Assembly: GCF_014654725.1 (NCBI RefSeq)
Contig: NZ_JACVZV010000030.1
Location: 62,001-126,000 of the forward strand
Direction: 5' to 3'
Length of the DNA stretch: 64,000 nt
From: Vulcanococcus sp. Clear-D1
Lineage (GTDB): Bacteria > Cyanobacteriota > Cyanobacteriia > PCC-6307 > Cyanobiaceae
Shown: positions 48,648 through 58,350 of the stretch, piece by piece
Layout of the letters: each line of letters opens with the position of its first letter
Numbering within the stretch: position 1 is the first letter of the stretch
Notes under the pieces: model-generated
Told to the model about the DNA's origin: nothing
The model's database searches: none
What the model saw: only the letters and a program-made list of their open reading frames with translations
Position numbers and translations under genes: made by a program

Positions 48648-50219
48648 GTGCTCTCTCTTCTGGCCGCCGCCGATCCCGGCGCCGCACCTGCGGTGAGTGC
48701 GATCACCTCCCTGCAGCTCAATGCAGGCGCGGTGGCACCGGAAGGTGCGGTACTCCTGGCGATGTTGGCCTGCCTGCTGGTGGATCTGGCCGGCGAGAAG
48801 GCCGCATCCCGCTGGGTCCCCCTCTTCTCTTACATCGGTCTTGGCAGCGCCCTGGGTCTGCTGGCGCTGCAGTGGAACGCTTCGCCACTGGAGCCCTCCT
48901 TCCTGGGCTCGTTCCTGGCCGACAACCTCGCCATTGCCTTCCGTGCCGTGGTGGCAGCCTCCACGCTGCTGTCTCTGCTGATCAGCTGGCGCTACGTGGA
49001 GCGCGCCGGCACACCGGTGGGTGAATACGCCGCAATCCTGCTGGCCGCCACCCTGGGCGCGATGTTGCTATGCGGCTCCACCGATCTGGTGAGCGTGTTC
49101 GTCTCGCTGGAAACCCTCTCGGTGGCCAGCTATCTGCTCTCCGGCTACATGAAGCGCGATGCGCGCAGCTCGGAGGCAGCACTGAAATATCTGCTGGTGG
49201 GCTCGGCGGCGGCGGCCGTGTTCCTCTACGGCGCCTCACTGCTTTATGGCCTCACGGGTGGCAGCACCAGCCTCGAAGCCGTGGGCATCGCGCTGCAAAC
49301 CAGCGCCTCGCCGGTGGCGGCCCTCGCCCTGGTGTTTGTGCTCTCCACGGTGGCCTTCAAGATCGCGGCGGTGCCCTTCCACCAGTGGACGCCGGATGTC
49401 TATGAAGGCTCCCCCACTCCCGTTGTGGCCTTCCTCTCGGTGGGCTCGAAGGCAGCTGGTTTTGCCCTAGCCCTGCGCATCCTGGTGGGCTGCTTTGAGC
49501 CCTTCGAGACCCAGTGGAAGCTGCTGTTCACCGTGCTGGCGATCCTGAGCATGGTGCTGGGCAACGTGGTGGCCCTGGCCCAAACCTCCATGAAGCGGAT
49601 GCTGGCCTACAGCTCCATCGGCCAGGCGGGCTTCGTGATGATCGGCCTGGTGTGCGGCACCGAAGACGGCTACGCCGCCATGGTGCTCTATATGGCGGCC
49701 TACCTGTTCATGAACCTGGGGGCTTTCGCCTGCATCATCCTGTTCTCGCTGCGCACGGGTTCCGATCGCATCAGTGATTACGCCGGCCTCTATCAAAAGG
49801 ATCCACTGATCACCCTGGGCCTCAGCCTTTGCCTGCTCTCCCTGGGGGGCATCCCTCCGATGCTCGGTTTCTTCGGGAAGATTTATCTCTTCTTCGCCGG
49901 CTGGGCTGACGGCCAATACCTGCTGGTGGTGGTGGGCCTGCTCACCTCGGTGGTGTCGATCTACTACTACATCTCGGTGATCAAGATGATGGTGGTGAAG
50001 GAGCCTCAAGAAGCTTCTGAGGTGGTGAAGGCTTATCCAGAGACAACCTGGAATGTGGCTGGTCTTCAACCGCTGCGGGCCGCTCTGATTTCGTGCGTGG
50101 TGGTGACCGCTGTGGGAGGCATCCTTTCCAATCCTCTGTTCGGCTGGGCCAATGGAGCCGTGGCTGGCACCCCGATGCTGCAGAAAGCGCTGGCAGCCTC
50201 CGGCATGCCGATCGGCTGA
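48648..50219 (+). CDS. ndhB: NAD(P)H-quinone oxidoreductase subunit 2 (NdhB)
   Basis: 523 residues from GTG 48648; about fourteen membrane helices. Conserved NdhB/NuoN features include [55 protein letters not shown] and [17 protein letters not shown]. It is a proton-pumping subunit of photosynthetic complex I, used in cyclic electron flow, respiration and CO2 uptake. It is divergent from topA (119-base spacer), and its stop overlaps the next start. Confidence 0.97.
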
Positions 50220-53589: not shown

Positions 53590-54791
53590 GCCACCATCCG
53601 CTGGGCACCGGCCTCGAGTTGCTCGATCGGATGCACCAGCGCCAATCGGGCAAACCCCTCGCCGCCTGGACCAAAACCATTGCCCGGCGTGAGGCACACC
53701 CCGCTGGCTTCCAGCAGCTGGGCACAGAACGGCTCCGAATCCAAACCCGCAGCGCGGGCACGGTCCGGCAGCTCCAGCCACAGATACAGCGCCATTGAGG
53801 GGATCCGCAGCGGCCAGCCGGCCTGTTGCAGCACCGCAGCCATCCGATCACGCCGTTCGCGGTAGATCGGCTTGATGCGCTCGGGCCAATCGCCGGCCTG
53901 CTCCAAAGCCGCAATAGCGCCAGCCTGAAGCGCCGTGCTCTGGTTGAAATCCACCACACCCTTCAGCTGCCGCAGTGCCGTGATCAAGGGCTCAGCGCCA
54001 ATGGCGAAGGCAATGCGGTAGCCCCCCAGGCACCAGCCCTTGGAAAACGAGAAAAACTCAATCCCGCACTGGCGCCAGAGCGGTGAGCGCAGCAGTGCCG
54101 GTGCGTCACCCTCCAGAGCCAGATCCACGTAGGGGTTGTCGTGGGCAAACACCACGCCGTGGCGTACGGCCCGCTCAGCAGCCTCATCCACCCAATCCTG
54201 TTGGCCCGTGGTGGCGGTGGGGTTGTGGGGAAAGCCCAGAACCATCAGCTTGAGGGCATCCCAGGCACTAGTGCTGAGCTGATCAAAGCGGGGCGCAAAG
54301 CCCTGAGCCGGATCGAGCTTGAGGAAATGCGGCTCGGCTGAGGCGAGGCGAAGACCGCCGAGATGGGAGGGGTAGTAGGGATCAAGCAACAACGCAGGAT
54401 CACCCGGGTTGAGCACAGCCAGAGGCAGGTGGGCTGTGCCCTCCTGAGAGCCCACCAGCAGCAACACCTCCCGCTCCGGATCCACCGAAACCCCGAAGCG
54501 TCGCCCTGCCCAGGCCGCCACGGCCTCACGAAATGGCAGGGTGGCGCCATGCAGGCAGTAAGCAGCGCTCTCTGGCCGTCCCAGCTGATCGCGGATCGCC
54601 TGGATCGCCGCTTCAGGGGGCTGGAGGTCGGTCGAACCAAGCGAGAGATCCAGCAGGGGCGGCTGACCGGATGCCGCAGCAGCGAGCCGGTAGGCCTGCT
54701 TGCGCTGATCGTTGCGGGCGAACACACCGCTGCCGAGAGCAGCAACCCGATCGGAGCGATGCAGTGCCGTCAGCGCCTCAGAGATGGGCAT
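53571..54791 (-). CDS. PLP-dependent aminotransferase (class I/II, diaminopimelate/aspartate type)
   Basis: 406 residues from ATG 54791, which overlaps the trxA stop. The PLP lysine is in FFSFSKGWCLGGYRIAF; the cofactor-anchoring Asp-x-Pro-Tyr appears as AHDNPYVDLAL, and the LGFPHNPTATTG segment is conserved. It resembles LL-diaminopimelate or succinyl-diaminopimelate aminotransferases, but the exact substrate cannot be told from the sequence. Confidence 0.88.
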   Translation of the reverse strand: MPISEALTALHRSDRVAALGSGVFARNDQRKQAYRLAAAASGQPPLLDLSLGSTDLQPPEAAIQAIRDQLGRPESAAYCLHGATLPFREAVAAWAGRRFGVSVDPEREVLLLVGSQEGTAHLPLAVLNPGDPALLLDPYYPSHLGGLRLASAEPHFLKLDPAQGFAPRFDQLSTSAWDALKLMVLGFPHNPTATTGQQDWVDEAAERAVRHGVVFAHDNPYVDLALEGDAPALLRSPLWRQCGIEFFSFSKGWCLGGYRIAFAIGAEPLITALRQLKGVVDFNQSTALQAGAIAALEQAGDWPERIKPIYRERRDRMAAVLQQAGWPLRIPSMALYLWLELPDRARAAGLDSEPFCAQLLEASGVCLTPGNGFGPGGEGFARLALVHPIEQLEAGAQRMVAWLAQL

Positions 54792-55098
54792 CCAGGAAGG
54801 CCTTGAGCTGGGGTTGAGCCATGGCACCTTCGTGGCGTGCCACCTCCTGGCCGTTCTTGAAAATCACGAGGGTGGGCAGGCCCTGAATCCCCATCTGATC
54901 GCGGGCCGTTGGGTTGGGATCGGCCTCGAGCTTGCCCACAGCCAGCTGGCCGGCGTATTCACCGGCAGCCCAATCCATCATCGGGGCCATCAGCCGGCAG
55001 GGCCCACACCACTCGGCCCACACATCCACGAGCACCGGGGTGGTGGCATCCAGCACCTCGGCCTGGAAGTTGGCATCAGTGAGGTGCAGAACAGACAC
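54778..55098 (-). CDS. trxA: Thioredoxin
   Basis: 106 residues from GTG 55098 (TTG 55110 would add four). Active site WAEWCGPCRLMAP; cis-Pro in GLPTLVIF; final helix MAQPQLKAFLDAHL. A general disulfide reductase, in cyanobacteria linking light to enzyme activity. The stop overlaps the aminotransferase start. No Yfr1-like small RNA was seen beside it. Confidence 0.95.
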   Translation of the reverse strand: MSVLHLTDANFQAEVLDATTPVLVDVWAEWCGPCRLMAPMMDWAAGEYAGQLAVGKLEADPNPTARDQMGIQGLPTLVIFKNGQEVARHEGAMAQPQLKAFLDAHL

Positions 55099-55130
55099 GG
55101 CGACAGTCAACGCTGCGGCGATTGTATGGA

Positions 55131-55898
55131 TCAGAGCTTGTCGATCGAGCGCTTCAGCTCCTCGAGCTCCGCATCCACCTCCTCCACCTTCACCGGTTGC
55201 ACCGCACCGCCCGCTTCAGGCAGTGCCGCCGCCGGAGCAGTGCCGGCCAGCTTGCCCTTCAGGGCGGCCAGTTCGTCATCCACCTCAGGCGCACCTTCGA
55301 GGGCAGCGAACTGACTCTCCAGATCAGCACCAGCCAGCTCAGCGGCTGCCTGGCTGCGGGCTTCGAGGCTTTGCACCTTCTCCTCCATCCGCTCGAAGGC
55401 GGCCATGGAGCTGTTGGTGCCGAGGTTGCCCACAGCGCTCTGCAGCTGCTCCTGGGCCTGAGCCGCCTGGGCCCGGGCCTTGAGCATGTCTTTCTTGGTT
55501 TTGGCCTCGGCGATCTTGCTCTCGAGCTTCACCAGGCTCTGCTTGAGCTGCTCCACCTGACCGGCCTGGCTCTGGAGCTGGGTGTTGAGCGCCGTGGCGG
55601 TGTCCTGGCAGGTTTTGCGGCGGCCCAAGGCCTCGCGCGCCAGGTCTTCCTCGCCTTTCTTCAGCGCCAGTTCAGCGCGCTCATACCAAGTGTTGGCCTG
55701 GGCTTCGGCTTGCTCGGCCTGGTTCTGAATGCGCTTCTGGCTAGCGATCGCTGTCGCCACCGCCTGGCGCAGCTTCACCAGGTCGGCCTGCATGTCGGCC
55801 ACCGACTGATCGAGGATCTTGGCCGGATCCTCCATGGCCCCCACCACGGCATTGGCGTTCGCGCGCACCAGACGGCTGAGGCGATCAAAAAAGCCCAT
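55131..55898 (-). CDS. vipp1: Vipp1/IM30 (PspA family) membrane-remodelling protein
   Basis: 255 residues from ATG 55898. N-terminal amphipathic helix MGFFDRLSRLVRANANAVV, then long coiled-coil (about residues 25-185), and beyond residue 220 an extra C-terminal helix (VEEVDAELEELKRSIDKL) that separates Vipp1 from PspA. It forms ESCRT-III-like rings that maintain thylakoid membranes. Stand-alone gene. Confidence 0.95.
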   Translation of the reverse strand: MGFFDRLSRLVRANANAVVGAMEDPAKILDQSVADMQADLVKLRQAVATAIASQKRIQNQAEQAEAQANTWYERAELALKKGEEDLAREALGRRKTCQDTATALNTQLQSQAGQVEQLKQSLVKLESKIAEAKTKKDMLKARAQAAQAQEQLQSAVGNLGTNSSMAAFERMEEKVQSLEARSQAAAELAGADLESQFAALEGAPEVDDELAALKGKLAGTAPAAALPEAGGAVQPVKVEEVDAELEELKRSIDKL

Positions 55899-55986
55899 GG
55901 CTAGGGATACGGGGCAGGCGACGAGGCTAACCAGTGCCCGCCGCAGCGGCACAGCGTGATTGCCGCATCTCCCGTAGCGTGACGCC

Positions 55987-56541
55987 ATGCCTGCCGCCCC
56001 CCGCAATCAAACCCGGCGCCAGGGCAGCGTGAACCTGCTGGTGCCGCCACCGCGGCCACCGCTGCAAACCGTGGTGGGCTGCTTGGAGCAGCTGCAGCGC
56101 CAGTGGCAGCGCGACGAAAACCTGGCGGCCCTGTGGCAGGCCTGGCCAAAGATTGCTGGCGCCCAACTCGCCCCCCATTGCCGGCCGCTGCGGCTGCAGG
56201 GCGGGCGCCTGGTGGTGGGCGCCAGCCATCCCCAATGGCTGCAAGCGCTGCGCTTCAACAAACACCGCTTGCTGGGTGCCCTCCGCGGTGCTGGCTTTTC
56301 GGTGAAGGATCTGGTGCTGCAGCAGCATCAAGCCACCCCCCTCCCTCCCTTCGGCAGCGATGAAGAGGCGCAGGTGTGGGCGCACCACCCCAGCCGCGTC
56401 GATGTGTTCGGCATGGCCAGCTGCCCCAGCTGCCAGCGACCAGCCCCCACCGGTGAACTGCAGCGCTGGGGGCACTGCAGCTTCTGCCAGCGAGAACGAA
56501 TGGACAACGGCGTCGCCATGGGGACACCCGCCGACGGCTGA
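55987..56541 (+). CDS. DUF721 (DciA-like) protein with C-terminal zinc ribbon
   Basis: 184 residues. Residues about 25-115 match DUF721: LQTVVGCLEQLQRQWQ, LWQAWPKIAGAQLAPHCRPL, GGRLVVGASHPQWLQALRF. DUF721 proteins (DciA) operate on the replicative helicase in bacteria lacking DnaC. A C-terminal two-CxxC ribbon (CPSC and CSFC, spaced about 15 residues) is added, probably binding zinc. It is divergent from vipp1 and converges on the GT39 gene. The DciA role is inference. Confidence 0.8.
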   Translation: MPAAPRNQTRRQGSVNLLVPPPRPPLQTVVGCLEQLQRQWQRDENLAALWQAWPKIAGAQLAPHCRPLRLQGGRLVVGASHPQWLQALRFNKHRLLGALRGAGFSVKDLVLQQHQATPLPPFGSDEEAQVWAHHPSRVDVFGMASCPSCQRPAPTGELQRWGHCSFCQRERMDNGVAMGTPADG

Positions 56542-56559
56542 GCGCATGCCCTGCTGAGC

Positions 56560-58350
56560 TCAGTAGCGCTCGGGCCTCGGCTGCTGCCAATCCGGCGGGG
56601 GCAAGCCCGCAACCCGCAAGTGCTGGGCCCATTGATCCAGGGCTTGCCGTGGCACCCGCCAAAGGGCAAACAAGCCCTCCTGTGCCAGGGGCTGGTGGGC
56701 CAGACCCCGCCAATGGGGTAGCTGGGCGGTGCGTTGATCGATCACCACCAACACGGTGTTGCTGGCGGCCGCCGGGGATGGTTGCTGCCCGGCGCGGCGC
56801 TCCTTCCATAGGCGGTCGTTGAGGTTGAGCGGGCCATTGGCCTGCACGCCCTCGTAGATCACCACCTGATCGGTATAGAAGTGCAGTGAGGGCTTGAGGA
56901 TCCCGACCATCGCCAGGGGTTCGCCGCTGCGCCTCTGATCCAAGGCAGCGGCTGCGAGGCGCCGCAGCGGTGCCTGCCGCAGGCGATCACCCAGGGCCAC
57001 CAGGGGCTGCAGAGCCGTGACGACAAACGTCACCACTGCCAGCTGCTGGGCCAGCAGCCAACCCCGCCGCCATGGAGTCTGGGCCCACCAGAGCAGCACC
57101 CCGGCCAACAAGGCAAGGCCAAAACAGGCGGCGGCGCGGCTGAGCAGTCCACCCGCCAGCAGCTCGGCCGGCAGGGTGGGCAGTTCAGGTTCGTTGATCA
57201 GCGGTACCCAGCGATCGGAGGCCGCCAACCCCGCCGCCAGCACGGCCTGCAGCGCCAGGGTGCTCACCATCACCCAGCGCGCCGGGCGCTGCTGCGCCGC
57301 CATGGCGATCAACAGACCGGCGGCAGGGGTGGCAGGGATCCAGTAGCTGGGCAGTTTGGTGGCCGCCAGGGTGAAAAACAGCAGCACTGCCAGCAGCCAG
57401 CAGATGGCGTAGCGCTGCAGGGATTGCTCGGGCGGAAGGCTGGCCGCTCGGCTGCTGAACCCTCCCACCAATCCGGCGAGCAGTAGGGGGGTGAACGGCA
57501 GCGAAGCCACCACCAGCACCGGCAGGAAAAACCACCAAGGCTGCAGGTGGTTGTTCACCACGCCGGTGAAGCGCTGCAGGTTGTGGTATCCGAAAAAGCT
57601 GTCGATGAAGGGGCGCCCTTCCACCAGCGCCGCCAGGCCGTACCAAGGGAGGGCCACCAAAGCCGTCATGGCGAGTCCAGGCCAAGGGCGCAGCCGGGCC
57701 ATCAGCCCGCGCAGATCGCGCTGCCAGAGGCCAAAGGCACACAGTGTGAGAGCGGCCAGCACCAGCGCCACGGGCCCCTTGGCCAGCACCGCCAGCCCCA
57801 AGAGGATCCAGGCCAACCAGCACCAGCCGCCACCGGCGTAACAACGCCAGAACAGCAGCAGCACGGCCCCGAGCAAACCGGTGAGCAAAGCATCGCTCAC
57901 GGCGATGCGGCTCCACAGCAACACCAGCGGTGAGAGAGCAAAAGCCAGCGCAGCACTCACCGCGGTGATCGCCTGCTGGGAAGGCAGAGGCGAGCGTCCG
58001 CCAGGCAAGGGCTGGGGCCAGCGCAGCAGCGTGGCCGCGATCACCAGCATCAAGCCCACACTGCTCAGGGCCGACGGCAACCGCGCCGCCCAGGTGCCGA
58101 GGGGATCCCATTGCGGCTGGCCGGGCAAGGCGTAGATCAGCCCCATCAGCCAGTACACCAGCGGTGGCTTGTCGTAGCGGGGCAAGCCATTCACCCGGGG
58201 AATCAGCCAGTCGCCCGTGCGCGCCATGGCCCGGGCCGAGGCGGCAAACAGCGGTGGCGTTTCATCCACCAACCCCGTGCTGCCAAGCCCCCAAACAAAC
58301 AGGGCAAGGCCGCAGATCAGCACCAACGGCAACACGAACCTGCGGGGCAC
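56560..58350 (-). CDS. ArnT/GT39-type membrane glycosyltransferase
   Basis: 596 residues with about twelve membrane helices. The catalytic periplasmic loop after helix 1 has the typical acidic pair in GLVDETPPLFAASARAM, followed by RVNGLPRYDKPPLVYW. ArnT-like enzymes use polyprenyl-phosphate sugars to modify lipid A or proteins. A soluble C-terminal part carries LVVIDQRTAQLP. Substrate unknown. It lies 34 bases downstream of the GT4 gene. Confidence 0.88.
   Translation of the reverse strand: MPRRFVLPLVLICGLALFVWGLGSTGLVDETPPLFAASARAMARTGDWLIPRVNGLPRYDKPPLVYWLMGLIYALPGQPQWDPLGTWAARLPSALSSVGLMLVIAATLLRWPQPLPGGRSPLPSQQAITAVSAALAFALSPLVLLWSRIAVSDALLTGLLGAVLLLFWRCYAGGGWCWLAWILLGLAVLAKGPVALVLAALTLCAFGLWQRDLRGLMARLRPWPGLAMTALVALPWYGLAALVEGRPFIDSFFGYHNLQRFTGVVNNHLQPWWFFLPVLVVASLPFTPLLLAGLVGGFSSRAASLPPEQSLQRYAICWLLAVLLFFTLAATKLPSYWIPATPAAGLLIAMAAQQRPARWVMVSTLALQAVLAAGLAASDRWVPLINEPELPTLPAELLAGGLLSRAAACFGLALLAGVLLWWAQTPWRRGWLLAQQLAVVTFVVTALQPLVALGDRLRQAPLRRLAAAALDQRRSGEPLAMVGILKPSLHFYTDQVVIYEGVQANGPLNLNDRLWKERRAGQQPSPAAASNTVLVVIDQRTAQLPHWRGLAHQPLAQEGLFALWRVPRQALDQWAQHLRVAGLPPPDWQQPRPERY

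Follow-up and report, generated by a model that had tools for sequence, protein, structure and literature searches.

A DciA-family protein with a conserved C-terminal Cys4 module in Vulcanococcus, and the apparent absence of dciA from some other cyanobacteria

We analysed a 64,000-nucleotide stretch of the Vulcanococcus sp. Clear-D1 genome (the window) that carries dciA, a gene for a DciA (DUF721) protein of 184 aa with a C-terminal Cys4 module (55987..56541, + strand). This protein is probably the cell's DciA, a loader or operator of DnaB that docks on DnaB through its C-terminal helix and putative zinc module. The call is correct and ordinary for the class: the gene encodes a conserved, previously noted form of a known loader family. 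Helicase loaders of the DciA type are widespread in bacteria, and a fixed zinc-type module at the place where other DciA proteins grip DnaB offers a clean test of the tail's role. The parts of these results that a specialist might not know are the location of the gene on the vipp1 side and its apparent loss in place from whole groups of cyanobacteria.

The DciA protein and the replication genes of its genome

The gene is an open reading frame with an ATG start. A Pfam search placed residues 32-110 of its product in the DciA family (PF05258.17, E = 5.8e-22, 78.2 bits against a cut-off of 24; 56080..56316, + strand), which upholds the DUF721/DciA assignment of the initial annotation; this was the sole Pfam family above its own cut-off in the protein. 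The product is basic (pI 9.96), and no AAA family was present among its Pfam matches at E <= 1; thus, it has no DnaC/DnaI-type (PF01695 AAA+) ATPase domain. The opposite strand carries a mirror ORF of 206 aa (55927-56547) with codon-position GC much like that of dciA. Composition does not decide between the two, and we chose the + strand because of its family match and conservation. Searches with tblastn against 50,697 phage records gave no relatives of DciA at E <= 1e-3, and no RNA family reached the gathering threshold between positions 50000 and 62000 of the window.

The genome that contains the window is 2.96 Mb long, in 39 contigs, with a completeness of 99.97%. PF05258 matched once in the genome-wide search, which leaves no second DciA of the kind that would count against a loader role. 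Full-length DnaB, of 472 aa, was also found once (TIGR00665, 636 bits, cut-off 385), and three further PF03796 matches were much weaker than that of DnaB. PF01695, the DnaC/DnaI/IstB ATPase family, had two strong and two weak matches. Both strong ones were rejected as a resident DnaC, being the IS21 helper ATPase IstB (NF038214, 286 and 266 bits, cut-off 200). The PF01695 search thus found no DnaC/DnaI among its strong matches, which were the ones typed; the weak ones scored 28.6 and 21.8 bits. The proposal that the protein is a loader candidate gained support from the PF05258 match, the model's closeness to solved DciA (below), the single copy, and a genome in which DnaB is present and DnaC/DnaI was not found. 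Separately, one gene of the window matched PRK02504, a model for NAD(P)H-quinone oxidoreductase subunit N that we take to be the cyanobacterial one (913 bits, cut-off 569); together with the class relatives described below, this is the evidence for a cyanobacterial source.

An AlphaFold2 model of DciA was built from an 82-sequence input (mean pLDDT 84.5), and in it the DciA domain is predicted to have a KH-like fold. V. cholerae DciA topped the VIA-align list (8a3v_C; Z 12.2, 1.5 A, 73 aligned, residues 44-116), followed by D. radiodurans DciA (7ykm; Z 10.5, 2.9 A, 78 aligned) and by domain I of DnaA (4tps_B; Z 8.9); these top rows cover DciA residues 43-116 only. Foldseek gave E values of 9.8e-5 for 8a3v_C and 8.1e-5 for 7ykm. 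The D. radiodurans structure holds the same domain (profile E = 2.1e-12), but it consists of the DUF721 domain alone, 105 residues, and a comparison of the zinc module lies out of its range.

The C-terminal module and its predicted use

Two CxxC pairs follow the domain, as the initial annotation had described. They are C146/C149 and C164/C167, and they form a zinc-ribbon-like module, C146-x2-C149-x14-C164-x2-C167, with an invariant Glu157 and Trp161 in the alignment (56422..56487, + strand). Its Cys4 pattern suggests that the module binds zinc. In the full DciA model the region had mean pLDDT values of 89-91 in blocks spanning residues 141-170. Modelled alone it was a beta-hairpin with helices (mean pLDDT 76.7), for which solved structures offered no good match (lowest Foldseek E 0.48; VIA-align Z no higher than 2.7). 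The interval between domain and module contains a predicted short helix at residues 125-132 (56359..56382, + strand), a candidate for docking on DnaB; its near-invariant Trp131 was kept in at least 90% of 78 sequences.

We examined the module at 141 loci of the phylum, made up of all 24 matches from the genus, 27 further loci from the phylum search, 60 hand-picked for spread, and 30 genomes hand-picked chiefly because they scored weakly or came from distant families. A pair of CxxC motifs with ribbon-like spacing was present in 123 of the 141. The window's class had the Cys4 module at every locus (109/109), and its pairs were invariably separated by 14 residues. Beyond the class, 14 of 32 loci had two such motifs, three of them with the 14-residue spacing, and none of the 11 in family f31 or the four in family f38 did. 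A shorter module, C-x2-C-x10-C-x2-C, was seen in deeper branches of the phylum, at eight of those 32 loci (L046, L066, L085, L091, L092, L104, L134, L141). All 39 dciA loci from named organisms carried the Cys4 module. Of the 109 class proteins, 82 were aligned and the rest, mostly near-duplicates, were removed by hand. All 82 matched PF05258 at E <= 0.01, and W53, L88, the four cysteines, E157 and W161 were invariant among them. The C-x2-C-x14-C-x2-C spacing appeared in none of 16,400 residue shuffles of these 82 relatives; together with its presence at all class loci, this shows that the module is not a product of chance.

The initial annotation had regarded the module as an addition to the minimal DciA. 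The addition is real and conserved; it is not new. The zinc-tailed cyanobacterial DciA is already known, in print since 2016: the accessible text of the paper that named DciA (PMC5109545) notes a zinc finger at the C-terminus, 'for example, in Cyanobacteria'. That architecture is the same as the one described here, and the paper's available text gives it one sentence, without the motif or its invariants. We found no literature on the function of the cyanobacterial zinc finger in a search that covered few subscription journals. PMC9865707 cites an evolutionary study of DciA groups.

Better-studied DciA proteins share the domain and a C-terminal extension after it. For V. cholerae, the available text on the DciA-DnaB complex (8a3v; PMC9912922) describes a KH-like domain in contact with DnaB and a disordered C-terminal tail that becomes a helix hairpin on the linker-helix/docking-helix (LH-DH) module of DnaB, whereas the window's DciA has the Trp helix and the Cys4 module. 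For C. crescentus (PMC9825169, PMC12547741; accessible portions), the extension binds DnaB. According to those portions of PMC9825169, the domain alone failed in a pull-down, and Leu163/167/170 matter. That C-terminus is a leucine-bearing helix and the same portions do not mention a zinc finger; in contrast, the window's protein has the Cys4 module. The C. crescentus DUF721 domain binds ssDNA (PMC12547741).

We propose that the basic KH-like domain would contact ssDNA as well as the rim of the DnaB ring, and that the C-terminal part would dock on the LH-DH surface of DnaB. In the class, that part comprises the short Trp-containing helix and then the Cys4 module, in which zinc, once bound, would fold a small, nearly uncharged surface bearing the Glu and Trp and help to hold DnaB. 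The end of the protein that binds DnaB in other species bears, in this class, the Trp helix and the Cys4 module; docking there on DnaB is therefore the likeliest use, and we infer DnaB to be the module's partner on that ground. Charge points the same way: the stretch ahead of the module has a mean net charge of +5.8 and the module's 22-residue core one of +0.5, which suits a protein surface better than a grip on nucleic acid. The domain may also dock by itself, because a truncated M. tuberculosis DciA containing the domain reportedly binds DnaB (discussion of PMC9825169).

The DciA loader could instead hold DnaB by the Trp helix or the domain, and the module would then be an added grip on ssDNA or fork DNA. 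Nucleic-acid binding is common among zinc ribbons, and the residues leading up to the module are basic, with a mean pI of 10.0. DciA proteins of other species bind ssDNA and dsDNA (PMC9865707, PMC12547741). The near-neutral module core speaks against such a grip, as do the non-Cys invariants, Glu and Trp rather than Lys or Arg, although 65 of 82 sequences have Arg at one core position, which could make a weak basic contact. We consider this use of the module rather unlikely. Docking on DnaB was also weighed against a sensing role, in which the loader's Cys4 site would respond to redox state or zinc and couple helicase loading to light or metal state. The protein offers four thiols in a phototroph, and a thioredoxin gene (54778-55110; PF00085, 100.7 bits) lies next but one to dciA and shares its locus in 20 of 24 genus loci. 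Proximity of genes is weak evidence, however, and CxxC pairs that start with CP are typical structural zinc knuckles; a sensor is a distinctly improbable use.

Gene neighbourhood of dciA

Upstream of dciA and divergent from it, 88 bases away, lies a PspA/IM30 (vipp1-type) gene (55131..55898, - strand; PF04012, 209 bits). Convergent with dciA is a gene for a glycosyltransferase with a PMT_2 domain (56560..58350, - strand; PF13231, 26.4 bits against a cut-off of 26.1), which was found in 23 of 24 genus loci. The vipp1-type gene accompanied dciA at all 24 genus loci, at 31 of the 36 remaining family loci, and at 38 of 39 dciA loci of named organisms from other families. In 36 of those 39 the order was vipp1, a SPOR-domain gene, dciA and CRHC, the last being our label for a small Cys-rich gene; the named-organism loci were found through CRHC, and this count therefore covers CRHC-bearing loci only. 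We concluded that dciA has a conserved vipp1-side location in the class, contrary to the available text of PMC5109545, which describes dciA as lacking a conserved location in Cyanobacteria.

Two further observations concern the neighbours. Among the class loci in which the arrangement was visible, most have the vipp1-type gene adjoining dciA or close to it (window 55131-56541; L001-L045; L228-L307). CRHC encodes a small Cys-rich protein (CRxCRxY.PEGRRGGxCQxL...) and lies beside dciA in many families; examples are L115:480-746(-), L173:515-790(-) and L175:3426-3686(+). Two examples had no family match in Pfam, and one had none in NCBIfam.

Genomes without detectable dciA

It is quite possible, if tentative, that large-genome lineages, namely the Microcoleus/Tychonema group together with members of four further families in the sample, have dropped dciA and load their helicase through an undescribed loader or none. 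PF05258 had no match in 26 of 386 genomes of the phylum, and 20 of the 26 were listed. Of the 20 listed, 17 belong to the class and lie outside the window's family, namely six of six listed in family f12, seven of 11 in f11, and one each in f7, f4, f21 and f24. The initial annotation had named loss of the gene in relatives without effect as evidence against its proposal. Apparent loss was seen at a distance, in the 17 listed class genomes, and not in the genus, where 24 of 25 genomes keep DciA and the exception is 84% complete. One genome of the window's own family, G337, also lacks DciA; three genomes of its genus have it, and an assembly gap may explain the case.

The place of the gene was judged where possible. 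In 12 of the 17 genomes, SPOR and CRHC lay 274-940 bases apart with no dciA between them (L173, L175-L179, L181, L184-L188), and the other five could not be judged. As controls, dciA lay between SPOR and CRHC in G181 and G032 and beside SPOR in G343. The gene can move, because DciA-positive G278 has none at the SPOR/CRHC place. Among named organisms we kept 80 of 206 CRHC loci, in which the absence of dciA was judged at the SPOR-CRHC place only. Thirty-nine carried dciA, 27 had SPOR and CRHC without dciA, and 14 had neither dciA nor SPOR and have no bearing on loss. The 27 (L228-L237, L239-L241, L246, L249, L253, L258, L260, L261, L263, L265, L267, L270, L272, L273, L275, L280) come from Microcoleus, Tychonema, Kamptonema, Microseira, a Lyngbya, a Phormidium and less precisely named relatives. 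Vipp1 was in place in 25 of them, and the gap between SPOR and CRHC measured 181-950 bases in 22 and more than 1.2 kb in five. Six genomes of f11 g26 had stretches 90-99% identical to Microcoleus, Tychonema, Lyngbya and Oscillatoriales loci.

Searches for an overlooked DciA were negative. A profile search for diverged DciA, run without a positive control, gave no match at E <= 0.1 across 21 genomes. A DNA pattern for the Cys4 module recovered all seven controls with no mismatches and gave no convincing match in 20 DciA-less genomes. Matches in G358 (two mismatches) and G376 (three) were rejected as DciA, both lacking the Trp; the ORF at the G358 match (L162) is 92 aa long with no visible DciA domain. 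G034 had a further three-mismatch match, and G000 had one as its second match. Next to the SPOR gene, some small ORFs scored weakly for DciA; these proved to be CRHC. When 82 DciA proteins were compared by tblastn with 14 chosen gaps of the 27, only four weak matches of 19-33 residues resulted (E 0.002-0.027), each of them on the wrong strand for dciA.

If dciA was lost from these genomes, its neighbourhood was otherwise kept. Sixteen of the 17 DciA-less class genomes have a DnaB match. No full-length PF01695 (DnaC/DnaI-type) match was found in the 17. The best partial PF01695 match was DnaA in all nine DciA-less genomes tested, which confirms DnaA in eight of the 17; other partial matches lay in longer frames, and some of these narrowly passed the cut-off. 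PMC5109545 mentions 49 species lacking both genes, with the caution that a number could have been overlooked; some of the DciA-less cyanobacteria seen here may be among them. The main text of PMC7198777, on cyanobacteria without dnaA, does not use the term 'DciA', and our search found no literature uniting Microcoleus and DciA. Loss, if true, would imply that a step presumed essential is open to rewiring, and would mark genomes in which to hunt for a replacement; the window's zinc-tailed DciA provides the reference state for testing it.

The same genomes bear on whether the window's protein is a DciA homologue by descent that is dispensable or repurposed in cyanobacteria. DciA may be dispensable in some of them, because several lineages keep DnaB with no detected DciA: among those listed, 17 class genomes outside the window's family and one inside it lack a detectable DciA, and 17 of these 18 have a DnaB match. 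PF05258 nevertheless matches in 360 of 386 phylum genomes and all 109 class loci carry the module, which argues for constant selection on DciA. A dispensable or repurposed protein is thus very unlikely, and we retain the reading of a DnaB loader.

G075 (f7 g28, 3.8 Mb, one contig) stood apart. It had no DciA, no DnaB_C match at E <= 1e-30, and no PF01695 match, though PF01695 caught DnaA elsewhere; its DnaB gene may be split by inteins.

Finally, a link between DciA and the docking-helix Trp of DnaB was considered. DnaB was scanned in 80 genomes, of which G075, G216 and G368 yielded no stretch. Among the first 29 DnaB loci, the Trp was missing in eight of 17 DciA-less genomes and present in all 12 DciA-positive loci. 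We then added 51 stretches from 50 DciA-positive genomes, in which the Trp was present in 33 and replaced in 18. Covariation with DciA was rejected as a sampling effect in this wider sample, because 18 of the 51 DciA-positive stretches were without the Trp. In those 18 (within L308-L358), the residue, described as conserved, was Met, Leu, Tyr or Phe.
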